This document shows, in pieces, positions 2,933-19,315 of a stretch of 19,749 bases of DNA. The stretch is taken from assembly GCA_027021085.1 (NCBI GenBank), contig JALUVB010000008.1, positions 1 to 19,749 on the forward strand. The letters are read 5' to 3'. Under the pieces are notes generated by a model, which was not told where the DNA came from, made no database searches, and was given only the letters and a program-made list of their open reading frames with translations. The translations under genes and the position numbers were made by a program. Position 1 is the stretch's first letter. The number at the start of each line of letters is the position of its first letter. This DNA comes from a bacterium. GTDB taxonomy: Bacteria; CAIJMQ01; JAADFP01.

Positions 2933-3150
2933 AAAAGGTTGAGATAATCGAGAATATCCTTATATTTATATCTATTTTTTCTATCTGGCCGGTAATATTC
3001 AATTGGCCTGGAAAAGGGTACCGATTCATAATGTTTTTCTTCCTTTTTGTGCTTGTAGGAGTGCTTATAAACAGAGCCAAAAGATTCCAGAGACTGATTC
3101 GCAAATTGAGAGAGGAAATGAAAGATGAATATGAAAAATTCACTAAGTAA
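2929..3150 (+). CDS. Small two-helix membrane protein of unknown function
   Basis: I do not recognise this 73-aa protein. It has two predicted membrane helices (about residues 7-24 and 33-47) joined by a short loop (NWPGKGYR). A positively charged, helical C-terminal tail follows (about 48-73, rich in R, K and E) and should be cytoplasmic by the positive-inside rule. Its ATG overlaps the ftsY stop (ATGA), and its 3' end overlaps the following TPR gene by 26 nt, so it sits in a translationally coupled chain. The strong overlap on both sides and the clean hydrophobic pattern support a real gene rather than a chance frame. A role tied to FtsY or to the membrane-anchored TPR neighbour is only an inference from position. 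Confidence 0.7.
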   Translation: MKKVEIIENILIFISIFSIWPVIFNWPGKGYRFIMFFFLFVLVGVLINRAKRFQRLIRKLREEMKDEYEKFTK

Positions 3151-3685
3151 GGCAATTTACCTCATCTCTTTCCTCTCTATCCTGGCTATAGCATCTGTAA
3201 TTCTACAGGGAATAAATAAAACCAAAAACCTTAAAAACGACGAGAAAGGAGAAGCACTATTCTGGGAAGGCAAAAACCAGGAAGTCAAAGAACTATGGAA
3301 AAAGGAATGGGAAGAAAAGAAAGAAATAGGAATAGCCAGGAAACTGAGCGTTCTTTACATCAAAGAAGGCTGGATAAAAGAAGGAATCGCATTTCATAAG
3401 GAAGCTTTAAAGATTTACCCGGATGATCCCAAGCTGCGATTTAATTTATCCCTTCTTTATTTTCAGGCGGAAAAATGGAAAAATGCCTGGGGAGAGCTGG
3501 ATAAAATAAAAGTAAATTACCCTCTTTTTCCCAACTTACATTACCTCAGGGGACTTATTCTGGAAAAAGAAGGGAAAGAGAAAGAAGCTTACAAAGAATT
3601 TATCAATGAGCTTAACAATTATCCGGAATGCGCAGGTGCCTGGGAAAAAATCCGGTTGTTTTCTAAAAAAGGGATTGAAAATTAA
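3125..3685 (+). CDS. Membrane-anchored tetratricopeptide-repeat protein
   Basis: The 186-aa protein starts with an uncleaved-looking membrane anchor (about residues 9-28). A charged linker and about three TPR-like helical pairs follow (roughly 68-101, 102-135 and 136-169). TPR-style positions are visible in ALKIYPDDPKLRFNLSLLY and in EGKEKEAYKEFINELNNYPE. TPR domains are protein-protein interaction scaffolds, so it probably tethers a partner at the membrane. The chosen ATG at 3125 has a purine-rich site (GAGAGG) upstream. A second in-frame ATG six bases later (3131) is an alternative. It overlaps the preceding small membrane protein by 26 nt. No specific function can be assigned. Confidence 0.8.
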   Translation: MNMKNSLSKAIYLISFLSILAIASVILQGINKTKNLKNDEKGEALFWEGKNQEVKELWKKEWEEKKEIGIARKLSVLYIKEGWIKEGIAFHKEALKIYPDDPKLRFNLSLLYFQAEKWKNAWGELDKIKVNYPLFPNLHYLRGLILEKEGKEKEAYKEFINELNNYPECAGAWEKIRLFSKKGIEN

Positions 3686-3712: not shown

Positions 3713-5662
3713 ATGGAAAATTTGACACCTCAGCCAGCAAATACCCGGGCTACCTACAGAGGCATGATAATAGGAGCCCTTTTCTCTCTCCTGGCCGTGT
3801 TAATGGCACATTATTCCATAAATGTGGTGCACGGTTCCTACATGGCCATCGACCATGTGCCAGTAGCAGGAGTCTTTTTGTTCCTGGTCCTGGTCATCTT
3901 TTTCAACGTATTATTAGGAAAGTTAAGAAGATCCTGGCATCTCTCTTCCGGAGAGCTACTCCAGGTGTATATCATGCTTCTGGTGGCTTCTTCCATAACC
4001 ACCATGGGGCTGGGCTCTCAGATACTATCCCTCATAGCTGCTCCCAAGTATTTCGCCTCTCCAGAAAATCGCTGGGATACCCTTATACTTCCCTATATCA
4101 AACCCTGGCTCATTCCCCAGAATACAGAAGCAATTAGGTTATTCTATGAAGGAGCGGGTAAAGGAGCCTCCGTGCCCTGGGGGGTATGGTTCAAACCACT
4201 GCTTTTCTGGTCTCCTTTTCTACTTTCTCTTTACTTATTGATGATTTTCATTCCTGCCATCATGGCAAAACAATGGATAGAAAGAGAAAGGCTTATCTTT
4301 CCTCTTACCCAGCTTCCCCTGGAAATGGTAAAAAAGGATAATCCTTCTTCCCTCCTTCCTCCTTTCTTCCGCAATCCCTTGATGTGGCTGGGATTTGCTG
4401 TCCCCTTTCTATTAAGCTCGATAAATGCTCTTCATAACTATATTCCCGGTATTCCCCAGATAAACCTGGCAAATAATATCCTGGTTTTCCGCCAGACTCG
4501 TTCTCTCTACTTTCGTCTGAGTTTTCCTGTTCTGGGGCTTCTGTACCTGGTAAACCTGGAAGTATCTTTCAGCATCTGGTTTTTCTCGCTTGTTTATCAA
4601 ACCCTCTCCGGGGTCTTTAACATCACAGGAATAGCCTCTCCTGAGAACCTCGGCATTTATGGTACCAGGGATGTGATATTCAACCATGTAGGTACAGGTG
4701 CTTTTATTACCTTTGTATTGTACGGGCTCTGGATGGCACGGGGACACTTGAAAGAAGTTTTCAGAAAGGCAATAGGCAGAGGCAACATAGATGATTCGGG
4801 AGAACTTCTTCCTTACAAGATAAGTTTCTGGGGTGCAATAGTTGCCTATATTATCTCTATAACCTGGTTGATTTTCTCCGGTATTCCTCCTATCCCGGCT
4901 ATTTTCTTCTTCACGCTGGCAATAATAATCTTCCTGGGAGTTGTACGGGTAGTCATTGAGGGAGGCATCCCCACGCTTATTGCTCCTGGCATAGCCTTTC
5001 CCCAAACTTATTCCACCCTGGGAACATCGCTATTAGGACAGAAAGGATTGGTAGCAAGTTACTTCACTTATGCCTATGCAGCAGATATAAGGACTTTCGT
5101 CATGTCTGCAGTCTCTAACTCTTTAAAAATACTCAAAGAAGGCGTGAAAGAGAAAGGAAGGCTAATCTTCTGGTCCATACTGTTTGCCGTGGTGATTTCA
5201 ATAGTAGCTTCTGTAGTAGTAGACCTCCATCTTGCCTATACCTACGGAGGAATAAACCTGAACCGTTGGTACTTTGTTGGTAATGCAACAAACCCCTTGA
5301 AAACAATAACCGATAAAATCCTTCATCCCACTCCTCCCAATAGCTTAGGATTACTTGCCAAGGGGGTGGGAGCAGGATTCATGTTCTTCCTCATGTTCAT
5401 GCGGGAAAGATTTCTCTGGTGGCCATTGCATCCTATCGGATTTGCCATAGGCTCGGTGAACTGGATAGATATGCTCTGGCTTTCCATATTTTTAGCCTGG
5501 CTTTTAAAGTTTCTCATCCTGAGATATGGAGGACCCAGAATTTATCTCAGAATACGTCCGTTCTTCCTGGGCTTGATTTTAGGCCAGTATTCTGCAGCAG
5601 GATTGTGGTTCGTAATAGACTTGCTCACCGGAATGACAGGAAACACAGTATTCTGGATTTAG
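3713..5662 (+). CDS. DUF6785/DUF6784-type polytopic membrane protein (OPT-like)
   Basis: This 649-aa, highly hydrophobic protein has more than ten membrane segments. It matches, from memory of the family, the DUF6785 (N-terminal) plus DUF6784 (C-terminal) architecture of uncharacterised proteins from planctomycetes and candidate phyla. Family-like landmarks are PWGVWFKPL (155-163), WIERERLIFPL (188-198), RVVIEGGIP (412-420), FLWWPLHPIGFAIG (567-580) and LRYGGPRIYLRIRPFFLGL (603-621). The fold resembles oligopeptide transporters, so a transport role is plausible, but no substrate is known. An in-frame stop at 3698-3700 makes ATG 3713 the only sensible upstream start; its ribosome site is weak. 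It is the first gene of a three-gene membrane cluster, 12 nt ahead of the M28-like/FtsX fusion and in the same orientation as the OPT-like gene that follows. Confidence 0.82.
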   Translation: MENLTPQPANTRATYRGMIIGALFSLLAVLMAHYSINVVHGSYMAIDHVPVAGVFLFLVLVIFFNVLLGKLRRSWHLSSGELLQVYIMLLVASSITTMGLGSQILSLIAAPKYFASPENRWDTLILPYIKPWLIPQNTEAIRLFYEGAGKGASVPWGVWFKPLLFWSPFLLSLYLLMIFIPAIMAKQWIERERLIFPLTQLPLEMVKKDNPSSLLPPFFRNPLMWLGFAVPFLLSSINALHNYIPGIPQINLANNILVFRQTRSLYFRLSFPVLGLLYLVNLEVSFSIWFFSLVYQTLSGVFNITGIASPENLGIYGTRDVIFNHVGTGAFITFVLYGLWMARGHLKEVFRKAIGRGNIDDSGELLPYKISFWGAIVAYIISITWLIFSGIPPIPAIFFFTLAIIIFLGVVRVVIEGGIPTLIAPGIAFPQTYSTLGTSLLGQKGLVASYFTYAYAADIRTFVMSAVSNSLKILKEGVKEKGRLIFWSILFAVVISIVASVVVDLHLAYTYGGINLNRWYFVGNATNPLKTITDKILHPTPPNSLGLLAKGVGAGFMFFLMFMRERFLWWPLHPIGFAIGSVNWIDMLWLSIFLAWLLKFLILRYGGPRIYLRIRPFFLGLILGQYSAAGLWFVIDLLTGMTGNTVFWI

Positions 5663-5674
5663 AGGAGGAGATAA

Positions 5675-8600
5675 ATGATAAGAAAATTAAGCTGCACTAT
5701 CTTCATATTTTTTTTCTTATTTTCTCTTACTATCACAGGATACGCTGACCAACTAACCCAGCACATAGAATATTTTTCCTCTCTTAAATCCAGAATTCCC
5801 GGATATCCGGGAAATAAAAAGGCAGCCAAATACATAGAGAACTTTCTCAAAAACCTTGGCCTGGAAGTAAAGAAAGAAGCAGTAGAGGTTACAGTTCCCG
5901 TCTCCAGGGGCGGAGAGCTCACCTTAAAAGGCAAGGTTTTCCCGGTTTACCCTCTCTGGCCCAACCTGGTAAGAACCCCTACTGTCCCCCCTGAAGGCAT
6001 AAAAGGAAGAATTATTTATGCGGGAAAAGCAAATTACAAAGATATAACCGGAGAAAAAATAAAAGACAATATACTTATCCTGGATTTCAATTCGGGAACT
6101 GCCTGGTTAAACATGGCCATGTTAGGAGCTAAGGCAATAGTATTTATAGAGCCCGAGAATACTTCCCGCTATGAAGCAGAGAGAAAATTTCTTTCCCAGC
6201 CCCTGGATATTCCCCGCTACTGGTTACCAAGAAAGTACTTTTCAGAGTTTCTATCCCTTTTAAGTGACAAAAATACAGAAGGAACCTTGAAAGGGAGAAT
6301 GGACTGGGAAAAGGTTAAATCCTACAATATTTATGCTACGCTTAAAGGTTCTGACCCCAAACTCAAGGAACAGTTGATAATCCTCTCTACTTTCTACGAC
6401 TCTATTTCCGTTATTCCTGATTTTGCTCCGGGAGCAACTTCTGCCTTCAACACTGCCACCCTTCTAAACATAGTCGAGGATTTCGTCAAGAACCCTCCTA
6501 AGAGAAGCATAATGTTTCTCTTTACCACCGGTCATTACGAAAACCTTTCCGGGATTGTAGCCTTTACACAGAGACATTTACGCAAACATAGGTTCATCAG
6601 AAACAAGATAAAAGAGCCAATCAATGCCAGTCTTTTCATTACCCTGGACCTCTCACCCGGGACCGATGAGATAGGTGTCTGGCACGGAACGAACGATTTC
6701 TATTACCAGAAGTTTTTTGCTCCCCTGGGCAAAAAATTTGAAGAGTATAATAAAAAAGTATCTGCCCGTCTCGGATATATCCCGGAAAACACCCTCACAA
6801 ATGGAATAAGCCCGGTAAAGGGAATAAGCTGGGATACTCTTATCTTAGAAAAAATAAAGGTAGAGGGCACTCCTGTTCTGCTTTCAGGAACTCCTGCCCT
6901 TAATCTTGTTACCATATATGATTCCCGAAACTACCTGGATACTCCTTTTGATACGCTGGACAGGTACAACCTTGCTTTCATCCGCAAGCAGTCCCGTTTC
7001 CTGAACAGCCTGCTGCAGGAGGCTATAAACGACGAAGATCTTTTCCCCTCCTTCCAGACAGAATTGAAGGATGGCTTGAAAAGCTTAGAAGCACGCTTAG
7101 TAACCTTTAATCCCCGCACTTCTTTTGTCCCTTCTAACCCTGTGTCCGGAGCTATTGCCTATGTCCACCTCACCGGCCAGGAGAAGGAGTATATGGGGGT
7201 AAGGACGCTAAGGCTAAGAATGACCGACAAAAAGGGCAAAGCAATTTTTAATGCTGTTAATGTCACATTATCAGAAAGCACCAATTATTATCTGGAAGGT
7301 TATGCACTGGATCCTACTACCGGAGAAATTGTTCTTGCCCCGGATTTAGGAGTAAATGGTAATGAAAATTACCCACTCCAGGTTAAAATGACCAACGTGG
7401 AAAATGAACATATGATTGTTCTTTTCCCCTGCAAGCCTATAAATGTATTTGACCTTATTGACCCGGCATTTCTCATTTCTCTTGATCGTATAGATGTTTT
7501 TGACAGGGCAAACAGCACTCCCTATGCCTATGGACAGAGCAGGTTCGTCCCCCGCGAGTGGGTGTGGTCTTCTGATAGTGAACCAGTAGGAGTAGTCTTT
7601 GCCCAACCTCAATCCTGGGTAAAAATACTGGGGAGCTCAGGTCCTCTGGGCAAACGATACCTGCTACTAAATTCCCAGAACTGGGAAACAAAAGAAGGTT
7701 CTGAAGGTAAAGGCTTCAACCCACAAGAAACTAATTCAATCATTCGTACTCCTTACCAGGGTGCCCATGACATGCTTTACCTGGACGAATTCCGGATTAA
7801 AAACCTGATTAGATATGGAATAAGCAACCGAAGACTGGAGAGTTTACATAAATGGGCATGGGACTCCTTTAAGAAGGCAGAAGAAGCACTCAAAAACAGG
7901 GTATGGGACAAATTTATGAAGTTTTCCCGCCAGGCCTTAGCAATAGAATCGCGCGCATATCCTGATGTAAAAGCAACTTCAAACGATGTTATCAAAGGAA
8001 TCATCTTCTACCTGGCAATCCTTCTTCCCTTTGCTTACTTTGCCGAAAGATTATTTTTTGGCTTTGCGGATATTAAAAAACAATTAGGGGGAGTTTTCGC
8101 TATCTTTCTTTTTATTTACTGGATAATGCGCATGGTCCATCCCGCTTTTCGTCTGGCCAATACCCCGGAAGTAATCCTGCTCTCCTTTATTCTACTCTCT
8201 CTTTCTGTAATCGTGGTTTCTATTATTAGCAGTAAATTTGAAGAGCAGATGCAAAGGATGAAAAGGGAGAGAGCCAAGGTACACGAAGCAGACGTAGGCA
8301 GAATTAGCGCTACAGCAGCCGCCTTCACCCTGGGTGTCTCCAACATGAAGAGAAGAAAGGTGAGAACCTGGTTAACTTCAATAACCTTGATTCTTCTCAC
8401 TTTCACCGTGCTTTCCTTTACTTCCGTAAAAACTTTCATGAAGTACAACCGGGTACTGCGAGATAACAAACCTCTCTACCAGGGCATCTTGATAAGGGAT
8501 AGGTCATGGAATCCTTTCGAGGAAGTTGTACTGGAACATTTGAGAAGCGGGTTTTTTAATGAAGCTAAGGTAATTCCCCGTTCCTGGCTTATCTCTCCCG

Positions 8601-10063
8601 TCCTGGAATCAACCACTTTCATAAAACTGAGAAACGATAAGCAATTTGCCTATGCTTCAGGCCTGGTGGGAGTAGTCCCGGAAGAAGATAAGATTACCCG
8701 CATTTCCAGGTTTTTGATAGCCGGAAGATGGTTTAAACCAGGAGAAAAGAATGTCATAATACTTCCTCTAAGACTTGCCAATCTTCTCAAAATAAAGAAA
8801 GAAGACGTAGGGAAAATTTCTCTAAACTTGCTGGGAGAAGAGGTCAGAGTAATAGGTATTCTCAACGACGAAGCCATGAAAAACTTGCATGACCTGGATG
8901 ATGAAAGGCTTACACCCGTCAATTTCAGCATGATGGGATCGAAGGAGTTAGAAAAAGTTAAACAGGAAAAAACAGTTATGGCAGGAATGGGGAAAACCAC
9001 CATGGAATCCTTCACCCACAGCGAATATTCCACTGTTCCCTTCCTTCCCTACCGTTTTGTTATGGAAAACGGCGGCACACTGCAGTCAATGGTTCTTTCC
9101 TTCCCCGAGGGTACCGACATAATTGCCCAGGCAGAAAAATTCGTTTCCCGTCTTGGCCTGACTATCTTCACTGGAGTAGGGGATAAAGTATGGGTTTACA
9201 GTTCTGTAGGGCTTACCTCATACAGAGGCATGGGAAACCTGGCCATTCCCATACTTATTGCTGCACTTATTGTACTGAATACCATGCTGGGCTCCGTATA
9301 TGAAAGGATAAAAGAAATAAGCACCTATTCCTCCGTAGGGCTTGCCCCTGTACACATAGCAGCCCTTTTCATAGCCGAAGCAGCAGTCTATGCAGTCCTG
9401 GGAGCAGTAGCCGGCTATCTCTTAGGGCAAGTTGTAGCAAAATTAACTACCACTTTCGGATTCCTTACCGGTCTTACCCTGAACTACTCTTCCCTTTCTG
9501 CGGTTACCTCCACACTCATCGTCATGGCAGTGGTAATGCTTTCCACTCTTTATCCTGCTCGCAAAGCATCCCAGCTATCTGTGCCGGACGTTACACGCAG
9601 ATGGAAACTTCCTGAGCCGGAAGGTGATGTCTGGGAATTTGATTTTCCTTTCACTATAAGTGGAAAAGAAATTCTCGGTGTCTATGTCTTCTTCCGAAAT
9701 TACTTTTCTGCTTATACGGAGGAATCCATTGGAACATTTTTCACCCAGGGAGTAGAATTTAAACCTTTTGATTGGAAAGGAGAAAAGGGCTACTCAATGG
9801 AAATGATAGTGCACCTGGCACCTTTTGACCTGGGCGTGAGCCAACATGCCACATTAAAAGCAATACCGACGGGAGAATTCGGCGTTTACCTGATTAAGGT
9901 AATCCTGAAAAGAAGAAGTGGGGAAATAGGTGCATGGAAAAGAGTTAACCGCAGATTCCTTGATACTCTCAGAAAACAATTCCTGGTCTGGAGAACACTA
10001 AGCCCGAAAATTAAGCGCGAATACCACGCAGAAGGAGAATCATTACTCAGAGAGAAGGAGTGA
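5675..10063 (+). CDS. Exported M28-peptidase-like domain fused to FtsX/MacB-type permease; probable pseudo-peptidase
   Basis: A 1462-aa fusion, preceded by a strong GAGGAGG site. Residues 1-24 look like a signal peptide (ending GYADQ). Residues 25-450 follow the M28 zinc-peptidase layout, including a PA-like insert (about 85-215), but metal positions are changed. The HxD site reads TFYDS (239-243), the GAxDN site reads GATSAFN (253-259), the GEE site reads GHYEN (286-290), and the late yHT site reads YLDTPFDT (420-427). Residues 480-770 are a beta-rich domain of unknown type. Three membrane helices follow (about 773-793, 805-823, 832-853). Next is an FtsX-like module: helix 897-917, an external domain 918-1185, and three helices between 1187 and 1296, with ERIKEISTYSSVGL (1210-1223) and PARKASQL (1294-1301). 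A 160-aa tail (1303-1462) should be cytoplasmic. FtsX permeases normally need an ATPase partner, and none is adjacent. The domain assignment is good; the function is unknown and loss of catalysis is inferred. Confidence 0.82.
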   Translation: MIRKLSCTIFIFFFLFSLTITGYADQLTQHIEYFSSLKSRIPGYPGNKKAAKYIENFLKNLGLEVKKEAVEVTVPVSRGGELTLKGKVFPVYPLWPNLVRTPTVPPEGIKGRIIYAGKANYKDITGEKIKDNILILDFNSGTAWLNMAMLGAKAIVFIEPENTSRYEAERKFLSQPLDIPRYWLPRKYFSEFLSLLSDKNTEGTLKGRMDWEKVKSYNIYATLKGSDPKLKEQLIILSTFYDSISVIPDFAPGATSAFNTATLLNIVEDFVKNPPKRSIMFLFTTGHYENLSGIVAFTQRHLRKHRFIRNKIKEPINASLFITLDLSPGTDEIGVWHGTNDFYYQKFFAPLGKKFEEYNKKVSARLGYIPENTLTNGISPVKGISWDTLILEKIKVEGTPVLLSGTPALNLVTIYDSRNYLDTPFDTLDRYNLAFIRKQSRFLNSLLQEAINDEDLFPSFQTELKDGLKSLEARLVTFNPRTSFVPSNPVSGAIAYVHLTGQEKEYMGVRTLRLRMTDKKGKAIFNAVNVTLSESTNYYLEGYALDPTTGEIVLAPDLGVNGNENYPLQVKMTNVENEHMIVLFPCKPINVFDLIDPAFLISLDRIDVFDRANSTPYAYGQSRFVPREWVWSSDSEPVGVVFAQPQSWVKILGSSGPLGKRYLLLNSQNWETKEGSEGKGFNPQETNSIIRTPYQGAHDMLYLDEFRIKNLIRYGISNRRLESLHKWAWDSFKKAEEALKNRVWDKFMKFSRQALAIESRAYPDVKATSNDVIKGIIFYLAILLPFAYFAERLFFGFADIKKQLGGVFAIFLFIYWIMRMVHPAFRLANTPEVILLSFILLSLSVIVVSIISSKFEEQMQRMKRERAKVHEADVGRISATAAAFTLGVSNMKRRKVRTWLTSITLILLTFTVLSFTSVKTFMKYNRVLRDNKPLYQGILIRDRSWNPFEEVVLEHLRSGFFNEAKVIPRSWLISPVLESTTFIKLRNDKQFAYASGLVGVVPEEDKITRISRFLIAGRWFKPGEKNVIILPLRLANLLKIKKEDVGKISLNLLGEEVRVIGILNDEAMKNLHDLDDERLTPVNFSMMGSKELEKVKQEKTVMAGMGKTTMESFTHSEYSTVPFLPYRFVMENGGTLQSMVLSFPEGTDIIAQAEKFVSRLGLTIFTGVGDKVWVYSSVGLTSYRGMGNLAIPILIAALIVLNTMLGSVYERIKEISTYSSVGLAPVHIAALFIAEAAVYAVLGAVAGYLLGQVVAKLTTTFGFLTGLTLNYSSLSAVTSTLIVMAVVMLSTLYPARKASQLSVPDVTRRWKLPEPEGDVWEFDFPFTISGKEILGVYVFFRNYFSAYTEESIGTFFTQGVEFKPFDWKGEKGYSMEMIVHLAPFDLGVSQHATLKAIPTGEFGVYLIKVILKRRSGEIGAWKRVNRRFLDTLRKQFLVWRTLSPKIKREYHAEGESLLREKE

Positions 10064-10066
10064 GAT

Positions 10067-12040
10067 ATGGAAGAGATAAAAAACACCAATGCAAAACAGC
10101 AGGAAGAAAAATTCGAAGACGGTTTTAATATTAAAACCGTCGTAGCAGCTCTATTTATAGGCTTCATCATGTTACCCGGGGCAATTTACCTGGGGCTGAT
10201 TACAGGAGGAAGCATAGGAGGAGCCGCACAATGGGTAACCATTATCCTTTTCGTGGAAATAGCCAAGCGTTCCCTGGTGCAATTAAAAAAGCAGGAGATC
10301 TATATTATATATATTATTGCCTCCAGCCTGGTGGCACCCGGTCTCATCATGGGAGCAGCATCCCTTGTACTCCAGGGAGGAGCCTTCGCCGAGAAAATAT
10401 GGCAGCAGTATCTAATCCAGTCACCCTATGCAAAAGCTTTCGGATTATCCGATAAAATACCTTCCTGGGTAGTGCCTCCTGCCGGTTCTGAAGCATTAAT
10501 CAAAAGGACTTTCCTGGACAAAGCCTGGATTATTCCTATCCTTCTCCTGGTAGGGAATAATGTTCTTTTCCGCTTAAATTACTTTGGCCTGGGATACCTT
10601 TTTTATAAACTCACTGCTGATATAGAGCGTTTACCTTTCCCTATGGCACCGGTGGCAGCAGAAGGCGCCACGGCACTGGCCGAAAGTAGTGCAAAGAAAG
10701 AAACATGGCGCTGGAGAATTTTTTCTATCTCTGCCATGATCGGAATAATTTTCGGCCTCTTTTATGTGGTAATTCCCACTTTCACCGGCCTGGTAATGGC
10801 GAAACCATTCATGCTCTTCCCCATACCCTGGGTAGATGGCACTTCTGACCTTGGTGCTCATTTACCCGCTGCCATATTTGGCTGGGGAACAGATTTAACC
10901 TGGATTTTTGTTGGCTTCCTGCTTCCCTTCTGGGTGGTAATAGGGACCTTCCTGGGCTCTTTCCTGGCTAACACGGTAATGAATCCAATTTTTTACAAGC
11001 TTGGTATTATACGCAGCTGGAGGCCGGGTATGACCGTGATACCGGCCAAGGTGGCCACCACGATGGATATCTGGATTTCCGTAACTATTGGATTGGGTAT
11101 AGTAGTAGCCCTGGTTGGTATATGGAAAGTGATAAAGACTTTCATGAAACCTCCTGCCCAGAGAAGGATAAGAAAATCACCGGCAGGAAGAGGAGACTTT
11201 CCCATCTGGCTTTCGCTGGTAGTATGGCTTTTTTCTACTACTGCCTATATTGTCATATGTCATATTCTGGTCCCCAGTTTTCCCTTGTGGATTTTCATTG
11301 TCTTCGGCTTCGTGCTTACCCCGTTGCTTTCCTTTGTCTCCGCCCGTATGTTCGGGATAACCGGTGTGGCCACAGGCATAAGTTTTCCCATGGTAAGAGA
11401 AGGGACCTTTATCCTTTCCGGTTACAAAGGTGCAGGTATCTGGTTTGCTCCTGTTCCTTATTTCAACCACGGATGGGTAACCCAGAGATTCGAAGAGCTT
11501 AACCTCACCCATACACGTTTCCCCTCCTGGGTCAAGGCAGAATTTACCGCCTTAGGTATCATGCTTGTTGCCTCTTTCCTTTTCTGGCAGATAATATGGA
11601 GAATGGGGCCCATTCCCTCTTCCACTTACCCCTTTGTACAAAAGATGTGGCCCATGAGTGCCATATTTAAATCTCTCTGGGCCACGGCCACCCTGGAAGG
11701 AGGAGCTAAGTGGATGCTCAAAGCAATAAATCCATCCTATATATTGCTAAGCTCGGGTATAGGAATTGTTTTATATTCGGCCTTAGCCATGTTTCGTATT
11801 CCCGTATCTCTATTTTATGGCTTGGTAGGAGGGGTAGCTATATTTCCCCATTTTGCTTTCCCCATGTTTGTAGGTGCTCTCCTGGGCAGATATTTCTTTG
11901 CCCGTAGAATCGGCAAAGAAACCTGGAGGAAATACACCCCCATAATCCTGGCTGGTTACTCCTGCGGAATGGGACTGGTGGGTATGGCTTCCATTGCCCT
12001 TGCCCTCATTGCCAAAACCGTTACCTCCCTCATTTTCTGA
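10067..12040 (+). CDS. OPT-superfamily-like polytopic transporter
   Basis: This 657-aa protein has a charged, cytoplasmic-looking N-terminus (1-22) followed by many hydrophobic segments. The motif RLPFPMAPVAAEGATAL (188-204) and the glycine-rich GYSCGMGLVGM near the C-terminus (about 630-640) resemble OPT-family (oligopeptide transporter) membrane proteins, a secondary-transporter group. It is not a close copy of the DUF6785/6784 protein upstream but shares size and general plan, so the two may be distant relatives. ATG 10067 lies 3 nt after the fusion gene and is preceded by GAGAAGGAG, which overlaps that gene's end. This spacing implies co-translation with the M28-like/FtsX protein. A peptide or other organic substrate is only a guess from the OPT resemblance. 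Confidence 0.75.
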   Translation: MEEIKNTNAKQQEEKFEDGFNIKTVVAALFIGFIMLPGAIYLGLITGGSIGGAAQWVTIILFVEIAKRSLVQLKKQEIYIIYIIASSLVAPGLIMGAASLVLQGGAFAEKIWQQYLIQSPYAKAFGLSDKIPSWVVPPAGSEALIKRTFLDKAWIIPILLLVGNNVLFRLNYFGLGYLFYKLTADIERLPFPMAPVAAEGATALAESSAKKETWRWRIFSISAMIGIIFGLFYVVIPTFTGLVMAKPFMLFPIPWVDGTSDLGAHLPAAIFGWGTDLTWIFVGFLLPFWVVIGTFLGSFLANTVMNPIFYKLGIIRSWRPGMTVIPAKVATTMDIWISVTIGLGIVVALVGIWKVIKTFMKPPAQRRIRKSPAGRGDFPIWLSLVVWLFSTTAYIVICHILVPSFPLWIFIVFGFVLTPLLSFVSARMFGITGVATGISFPMVREGTFILSGYKGAGIWFAPVPYFNHGWVTQRFEELNLTHTRFPSWVKAEFTALGIMLVASFLFWQIIWRMGPIPSSTYPFVQKMWPMSAIFKSLWATATLEGGAKWMLKAINPSYILLSSGIGIVLYSALAMFRIPVSLFYGLVGGVAIFPHFAFPMFVGALLGRYFFARRIGKETWRKYTPIILAGYSCGMGLVGMASIALALIAKTVTSLIF

Positions 12041-18586: not shown

Positions 18587-19315
18587 TCAATTTAACTTTT
18601 TAAGGAAATTTTCCTTATACCACCTTTCCCATTCTTCCGGGCTCTGATATTTTTCTCCCGTTATTTCCTGGAGACTTAATATAACTCTACCCATGAAACG
18701 AGAATCTTTCTGAGCCGGAGGGATAGAATGCATGATTTCAAAGAGAGTTTTGATAGCTTTTTCTTTCTCTTGCGAGAGCAACCCTAAAACAGCTAATGAA
18801 GGAGCCGCATTGGAACGGACCATATAGTTTTCATTTCTATCATAGAAGAGCCGTTTAAGAAGCCGGATATATTCAGAATAGGTATTTAATTTATTTTTTC
18901 TTTCCTCCAGAAAAATCCCCAGTCCAAAAAGGGCCACTTCTGCTCGAAATTCCGGATCTTCTTTACCCCTAACTATGTTAAAAACTAATTCTTTTCTTTT
19001 TAAATCCCATTCAGGCAAATTGTCCATCTTTTTTAATAGGGCAAGGGAGGCTATGGACCAATAGCGGACAATTTTATCTTCCTGAGTAGATTTAGCAGTG
19101 GTATAAAGTATTTCGACACCTTTGATATAATTTTCGCCCATTTTTTCTTTCTTTAAGAGTTTACCTAACTCCACGATGTCTTGAATTTTCTTCTTTCTTG
19201 TTGCGGGTTGCTTTAGGTCTCTCATCAGATTTTCTATGGATTGAGAATAGAGGTTGACGCTAGAAAAAAGAAAAGTTAATAAAAGGGATAGAAATTTAAC
19301 CCATGTCCTTGCCAT
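18587..19315 (-). CDS. Secreted HEAT-like helical-repeat protein
   Basis: The 242-aa protein begins with a signal peptide (about 1-24, basic start MARTWVK and a hydrophobic core of L, F and V, ending near LYSQS). The rest is mostly helical with spaced ALA/LAVLG-type motifs (KIVRYWSIASLALL 81-94, FRAEVALFGLGIFLEE 123-138, RSNAAPSLAVLGLL 167-180), consistent with HEAT-type alpha-solenoid repeats. It ends with ITGEKYQSPEEWERWYKENF (218-237), a C-terminal form I associate with periplasmic HEAT-repeat proteins. The solenoid would mediate protein binding in the envelope; no enzyme motif is seen. The ATG at 19315 is preceded on the minus strand by GGAGGG (19321-19326 on +). It lies 24 nt after the stop of the upstream minus-strand gene, so the two are probably one transcript. 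Confidence 0.78.
   Translation of the reverse strand: MARTWVKFLSLLLTFLFSSVNLYSQSIENLMRDLKQPATRKKKIQDIVELGKLLKKEKMGENYIKGVEILYTTAKSTQEDKIVRYWSIASLALLKKMDNLPEWDLKRKELVFNIVRGKEDPEFRAEVALFGLGIFLEERKNKLNTYSEYIRLLKRLFYDRNENYMVRSNAAPSLAVLGLLSQEKEKAIKTLFEIMHSIPPAQKDSRFMGRVILSLQEITGEKYQSPEEWERWYKENFLKKLN

Follow-up and report, generated by a model that had tools for sequence, protein, structure and literature searches.

What does a bacterium do with a 1462-amino-acid (aa) protein that joins a secreted peptidase-like domain to a permease, encoded between two other large membrane proteins? The question is raised by contig JALUVB010000008.1 (19,749 nucleotides (nt), hereafter the window, which is the entire contig C8 of a 1.93-Mb source genome in 307 contigs), where three open reading frames (ORFs) lie on the plus strand with intergenic gaps of 12 and 3 nt:

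3713 to 5662, plus strand: DUF6785/DUF6784 protein, 649 aa, 13 hydrophobic peaks (Pfam)
5675 to 10063, plus strand: M28-FtsX fusion, 1462 aa, a permease half with a giant ectodomain (Pfam FtsX and M28; 33 homologues)
10067 to 12040, plus strand: OPT-family protein, 657 aa (Pfam OPT)

An earlier note on this DNA had given these coordinates, gaps and domain contents, all of which agree with the ORF list and Pfam, and had read the spacing as the mark of a fixed three-protein complex. We put at roughly 55% the probability of a different reading, that the locus belongs to a composite machine for envelope transport in which a type VII ATP-binding cassette (ABC) system with a pseudo-peptidase ectodomain serves OPT-fold carriers. 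The composition of this system (M28-FtsX, an ATPase, a short FtsX protein and OPT) is well supported by sequence, fold and distribution; its mechanism and substrate we infer.

Gene neighbourhoods were compared in the near relatives from the window's phylum (G000 to G006, G000 being the window genome), in a second phylum of 35 genomes reached from three loci of the genome scan (the G011 phylum), and in a wider sample of 290 genomes chosen as relatives, 14 of which, in 11 family-level groups, carry M28-FtsX. A first pattern scan of genome contigs was a poor gauge of distribution because it gave only five loci, whereas the gene is encoded in 31/35 genomes of the G011 phylum. M28-FtsX and OPT directly adjoin each other in 29/34 readable loci from ~11 families, which is far above chance; the median gap between them is 18.5 nt (24 loci measured), and their pairwise protein distances are correlated (r = 0.93, 25 loci), as is expected of joint inheritance and is no proof of contact. 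OPT directly follows M28-FtsX in G260, G118, G081, G324 (two loci), G226, G227 and G082, and in G005, of the window's genus, M28-FtsX is intact at 89% identity and OPT at 97% over the portion present. The earlier note had held that rare adjacency of the three families in other genomes would count against a unit; adjacency is indeed rare for DUF6785 and clearly not for M28-FtsX with OPT. The conserved core is thus M28-FtsX and OPT, and DUF6785 is a variable member.

Within the 290 genomes, the OPT subfamily occurs in the same 14 and in no others at E <= 1e-10, DUF6785 in 13 of the 14 (not in G001) and in no others at E <= 1e-20, and an ABC ATPase, at an identity of at least 72%, in exactly the 14, with a best match of 54% in the other genomes; this sample is not phylogenetically independent, and we claim no p-value. 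Inside the window's phylum, the three core genes are all present in G000, G001 and G005 and all absent, M28-FtsX included, from G002, G003, G004 and G006.

The close spacing itself runs on beyond OPT into hisS (start 12043, gap 2 nt), aspS (4-nt overlap) and ychF (gap 22 nt). With hisS and aspS at gaps of 2 and -4 nt, the spacing is therefore that of a compact operon and no argument for a complex, and we rejected it as a sign of one.

The notion that M28-FtsX is a permease lacking an ATPase gave way to the co-occurring ATPase, which, like a short FtsX partner, is encoded on another contig of the window genome, C280 (L106), in the following block:

L106 6155 to 5319, minus strand: 278-aa ORF, no significant Pfam family
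L106 5337 to 4957, minus strand: PqqD-like protein
L106 4960 to 4325, minus strand: short FtsX protein
L106 4267 to 3536, minus strand: ATPase
L106 3488 to 2286, minus strand: GGDEF protein

Elsewhere the block stands next to the core. Three loci (L094, L095 and L096) carry, downstream of M28-FtsX/OPT, genes for a PqqD-like protein, a short FtsX protein of 214-220 aa with no ectodomain, an ABC ATPase of 243-246 aa and a GGDEF protein; at L103 and L105 a 278-aa-type ORF, a PqqD-like protein and the ATPase come after M28-FtsX/OPT, and at L102 the 278-aa-type ORF/PqqD-like/ATPase block lies upstream of DUF6785, giving contiguity in six loci of five families. Gene order in these loci and distribution tie M28-FtsX to the LolD-like ATPase and the ectodomain-less short FtsX. 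The ATPase has a Walker A motif, the signature LSGGQQQR and a Walker B motif, and both lines of evidence point to it as the probable partner ATPase of the LolD/MacB/FtsE kind. It is present at an identity of at least 76% in 29/35 genomes of the G011 phylum, nearly always with an adjoining short FtsX; the short FtsX is missing from the block in G227 and G082, where a short FtsX adjoins a second related ATPase. The PqqD-like protein and the 278-aa ORF were set aside as universal parts, since tblastn of the 1.5-kb flanks located PqqD at no more than two ATPase loci of the G011 phylum. FtsX-family proteins in the window genome number three: M28-FtsX, the short FtsX and one of 385 aa. As a separate observation, L106:2286-12890 reads on one strand bamA, Skp/OmpH-like, lpxC/fabZ fusion, lpxA, lpxI, Gfo/Idh, 278-aa ORF, PqqD-like, short FtsX, ATPase and GGDEF.

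M28-FtsX is a real fusion, with 33 homologues that align along its length, and divides as follows (TM, transmembrane):

5675 to 5749, plus strand: signal-peptide-like hydrophobic segment, aa 1-25 (hydropathy)
5753 to 7054, plus strand: PA-containing domain of M28 aminopeptidase fold, catalytically dead, aa ~27-460 (model, fold matches, absent metal ligands)
7055 to 7954, plus strand: beta-rich domain and helical stalk, aa ~461-760 (DSSP of the model)
7988 to 8227, plus strand: three extra TM helices, aa 772-851 (hydropathy, regional identities)
8372 to 8428, plus strand: FtsX TM1, aa 900-918 (hydropathy)
8429 to 9241, plus strand: FtsX extracytoplasmic domain, aa 919-1189 (location between TM1 and TM2)
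9242 to 9580, plus strand: FtsX TM2-4 and coupling region, aa 1190-1302 (PF02687 at aa 1192-1302)
9602 to 10060, plus strand: conserved C-terminal cytoplasmic domain, aa 1310-1462 (alignments)

Hydropathy thus gives a signal-like segment, ~750 extracytoplasmic residues and three TM helices, followed by one TM helix, ~270 aa and three more, and Pfam recognises both ends (Peptidase_M28 at 30.1 bits against a cut-off of 21.3; FtsX, PF02687, at 58.5 bits). The helices of the FtsX part (aa 900-918, 1190-1208, 1228-1246 and 1274-1292), with ~270 aa between TM1 and TM2, form the type VII ABC permease pattern of TM1, large ectodomain and TM2-4. TM2-4 with the coupling region are 61-79% identical among families outside the genus, and the extra helices at aa 772-851 are 58-77% identical to those of most homologues, above the conservation of the ectodomain. 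These extra helices (7988-8227) and the C-terminal domain (9602-10060), both strongly conserved, match no known family. Some homologues are much longer (1746-2426 aa), with big N-terminal extra segments (L103:6192-13280, L105:7076-14356, L104:7258-13089 and L101:8251-13491). The 3.8-Mb genome G155 has at least three M28-FtsX paralogues, three OPT copies and 41 FtsX-family matches, many of them ~800-aa proteins with two FtsX domains.

A structure model of ectodomain residues 20-776 (mean pLDDT 89) finds its best Foldseek matches in the PA-containing M28 aminopeptidases 2ek8 and 6hc6 (E down to 5e-25), and it superposes on 2anp (VIA; Z 27.5, 257 residues, rmsd 2.5), in keeping with an M28 fold, and on transferrin receptor 1 (VIA; Z 25); few structure matches cover the beta-rich region at ~461-690. 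A profile search with the ectodomain also retrieves nicalin and transferrin receptor 1. The first metal-binding His of the M28 HxD motif and the Glu-Glu pair are, however, replaced in 33/33 sequences (alignment columns), and we rejected an active peptidase because the zinc ligands are gone in every homologue. The external domain had been proposed to be a pseudo-M28 domain, and so it is: the alignment shows a family-wide pseudo-peptidase whose fold has probably been maintained by selection. Transferrin receptor 1 and nicalin likewise retain the PA and M28 fold in a membrane-anchored ectodomain that serves in binding or assembly, with catalysis lost, and nicastrin is another pseudo-M28 protein; here, in contrast, the domain is fused to an ABC permease. 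M28-FtsX is accordingly half of a permease of the type VII (MacB/Lol/FtsX) ABC kind, carrying a secreted PA and M28 domain without zinc ligands.

Both flanking proteins had been called OPT-like, and this stands, by different routes. The 657-aa protein passes the Pfam OPT cut-off (31.0 bits vs 25.8), and 12/24 of its homologues have a match at E <= 1, but it scores 19.8 bits against the TIGR00728 OPT superfamily, well under the cut-off of 128.35. The 649-aa ORF scores 408 bits with DUF6785 and 106 bits with DUF6784, and no PF03169 (OPT) match exists among 24 DUF6785 members. Profiles of the 24 DUF6785 proteins and of 24 OPT-like partners nevertheless align over nearly their full length (E 7.7e-6, score 56), as compared with scores of 20-29 in reversed and block-shuffled controls (E 0.02-0.26 when shuffled). 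The DUF6785 model (pLDDT 90, pTM 0.92) superposes on barley YS1, of the OPT family, with Z 23.9 over 549 residues (rmsd 3.9, ~10% identity; Foldseek E 7e-9), the next unrelated chain reaching Z 5.1; PDB sequence searches with the OPT and DUF6785 profiles returned no match, and fold comparison alone gave one. DUF6785 therefore has the OPT fold, and we take it to be a carrier of this kind, a facultative and often multi-copy member of the system. M28-FtsX is tied to the invariant OPT protein and, by distribution, to this second OPT-fold family. A plasmid search with the OPT protein gave no match. A second OPT copy in G226 (L183, contig C78) is broken by an in-frame TAG, and no M28-FtsX is seen beside it.

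How firmly does DUF6785 belong? Phylogenetic profiles place the three genes together, and to this extent the earlier note's unit survives; DUF6785 falls outside the fixed core, being absent from the loci of most relatives, a remnant in G005 and multi-copy elsewhere, and a fixed DUF6785-M28-OPT trio was rejected on the remnant and on 20 unlinked loci of the G011 phylum. The remnant (L019:4464-4844), between TPR and M28-FtsX, fuses the first ~37 codons to the last ~90 and has an in-frame stop; G005 holds another DUF6785 (42%) elsewhere in its genome, and none is found anywhere in the G001 genome (84% complete). DUF6785 is present in 31/35 G011-phylum genomes at 1-5 copies each and never adjoins M28-FtsX in the 20 readable loci, the closest same-contig copy lying 17 kb off. 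One could suppose from this that the DUF6785 gene is a passenger inserted between TPR and M28-FtsX in the window's genus, and the window copy does group with the unlinked G011-phylum copies (50-57% identity) and not with the linked copies of G226 and G155 (27-32%). We consider such a passenger unlikely, since in three unrelated families DUF6785 lies directly upstream of M28-FtsX with the same orientation, namely in the window, in G226 (L102: DUF6785, M28-FtsX, OPT, the window's order) and in G155 (L182: DUF6785, then after 1 nt M28-FtsX, an amidohydrolase-like gene and OPT), because it also stands divergently beside M28-FtsX in G155/G292, and because its distribution is nested within that of M28-FtsX.

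The chief rival to the composite machine is an envelope-lipid role, because the ATPase block follows the lpx/bamA operon in the window genome: M28-FtsX, the short FtsX and the ATPase would extract lipoproteins or lipids from the inner membrane in the manner of LolCDE or YbbAP-TesA, with OPT as an accessory flippase or scaffold and not a peptide carrier. In G000 the block comes directly after bamA, Skp/OmpH-like, lpxC-fabZ, lpxA, lpxI and Gfo/Idh genes on one strand, G001 retains the lpxI-Gfo/Idh portion beside it, and YbbAP-TesA shows that membrane lipids can be offered by a type VII ABC system to a hydrolase-type partner in the periplasm (PMC12646458). By score, the ATPase comes closest to LolD (231.7 bits) and the short FtsX to lolCE (55.6 bits), but both fall well under the equivalog cut-offs (307.75 and 362.45), M28-FtsX reaches 24 bits with lolCE, and LolCDE membership was rejected on these scores. 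Moreover, many of these genomes own other LolC/E-sized FtsX proteins (385-439 aa), the lpx linkage is confined to the window's phylum, the block elsewhere adjoining proC, Opp or unrelated genes, and the OPT partner is left unexplained, all of which makes this role distinctly improbable in our view. OPT/YSL carriers studied elsewhere are single-component. That OPT and DUF6785 are likewise stand-alone proton-coupled carriers, merely co-inherited and co-transferred with a separate M28-FtsX/ATPase machine, accords with the YS1 structures 7wsr and 7wst, which contain one protein, and with gene order being by itself no proof of contact (hisS and aspS share the operon in the window's phylum), but is the most doubtful of the alternatives, since OPT, unlike a free-standing carrier, is found in 0/276 genomes without M28-FtsX (E <= 1e-10) and the two genes stay adjacent while all their other neighbours change.

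The composite transport machine that we favour has its own difficulties. Associations among its proteins are drawn from sequence, fold, gene order and distribution and not from physical contact, and co-occurring families may share ancestry and hence may not be independent trials. Neither the window genome nor the G011 phylum has the ATPase block linked to M28-FtsX, and the block comes after an lpx/bamA-type envelope operon in the window's phylum; G155/G292 have four M28-FtsX paralogues with no adjoining OPT. A peptide substrate is guilt by association, and DUF6785 paralogues adjoin sugar, sugar-acid and housekeeping genes.

If the machine exists, two copies of the ATPase would carry an asymmetric permease pair, M28-FtsX with the short FtsX; a pair in which a single permease half bears an ectodomain has a precedent in BceB, and a Porter-like subdomain in the TM1-TM2 ectodomain is a type VII ABC feature (PMC5985334). 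By analogy with MacB, LolCDE, BceB and YbbAP-TesA, ATP hydrolysis would shift the pseudo-peptidase ectodomain (mechanotransmission), which would bind a substrate (probably a peptide or another kind of small conjugate) and pass it to, or free it from, an OPT-fold carrier (OPT or a DUF6785 paralogue) in the same membrane. Of the two directions, import is slightly favoured over export. Several hints suggest a peptide-like substrate, none of them being proof: the OPT family, the peptidase ancestry, the PqqD-like protein and the Opp/Dpp neighbours (beside the ATPase block lie an Opp/Dpp operon in three genomes of the G011 phylum and Opp/Dpp-type ATPase genes in the window genome). DUF6785 paralogues may be exchangeable carriers with different substrates on one shared core; their varied metabolic neighbours (HMGL/aconitase-type, amidase, PfkB, Gfo/Idh, CBM9, GH42 and xylose-isomerase-like genes) are compatible with differing substrates.

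Every part comes from a known superfamily, and the assembly, widely scattered in bacteria, matches no described system. With the type VII ABC systems (MacB, LolCDE, FtsEX, YbbAP-TesA and BceAB) it shares the FtsX permease and a LolD/MacB-like ATPase, but here a dead PA and M28 domain, a beta-rich domain and three TM helices are fused before the permease, an ectodomain is absent from the other permease half, and the system is always accompanied by OPT-fold proteins. We know of no linkage of OPT proteins to an ABC ATPase. The likeness to the OPT/YSL family is limited by the low identity and missing Pfam OPT match of DUF6785 and by the TIGR00728 score of the 657-aa protein. ECF transporters have an analogous layout, a mostly single-copy core with many scattered carrier paralogues, but no sequence or fold relation, so that this is analogy only. 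Going further, the system could be of a new class, an ECF-like arrangement of unrelated parts: a single type VII core, its receptor a dead peptidase, would energise or gate one invariant OPT-fold carrier and many exchangeable ones (DUF6785), and a fold supposed to be that of secondary carriers would serve as the substrate-specific component of an ABC machine. This is a tentative extension, possible though unlikely. A literature search found no paper naming DUF6785/DUF6784 and none combining M28 with FtsX and OPT, in line with the earlier note, which knew of no characterised system of this composition.

One gene of the window that the earlier note missed accompanies the core in part of its range:

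3125 to 3685, plus strand: TPR protein, 186 aa, one N-terminal TM anchor (Pfam TPR matches)

The window reads SMC, ftsY, TPR, DUF6785, M28-FtsX, OPT, hisS, aspS, ychF and ssb, and G001, from another family of the phylum, reads TPR (partial), M28-FtsX, OPT, hisS and aspS. Every readable locus of the G011 phylum keeps the order TPR, M28-FtsX, OPT, with varying outer genes, and there the TPR homologue lies directly upstream of M28-FtsX, mostly with an overlap of 8-17 nt. TPR is adjacent in 23/23 readable loci of the two phyla, as the first gene of a conserved unit, and was rejected as a universal member because it is confined to these phyla, the TPR profile finding none adjacent in other families. 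At 18587-19315 (minus strand) the window also encodes a protein of 242 aa whose weak HEAT-repeat match falls under the cut-off.

These results give DUF6785/DUF6784 a first functional frame, an OPT fold associated with one particular ABC system, and they give one as well to the giant pseudo-peptidase permease of several little-known bacterial phyla. They raise the question of whether a type VII ABC motor can power or gate a carrier whose fold is deemed secondary-active, and the parts list (M28-FtsX, short FtsX, ATPase and OPT, with DUF6785 and TPR as accessories) opens the way to reconstitution and complex prediction.

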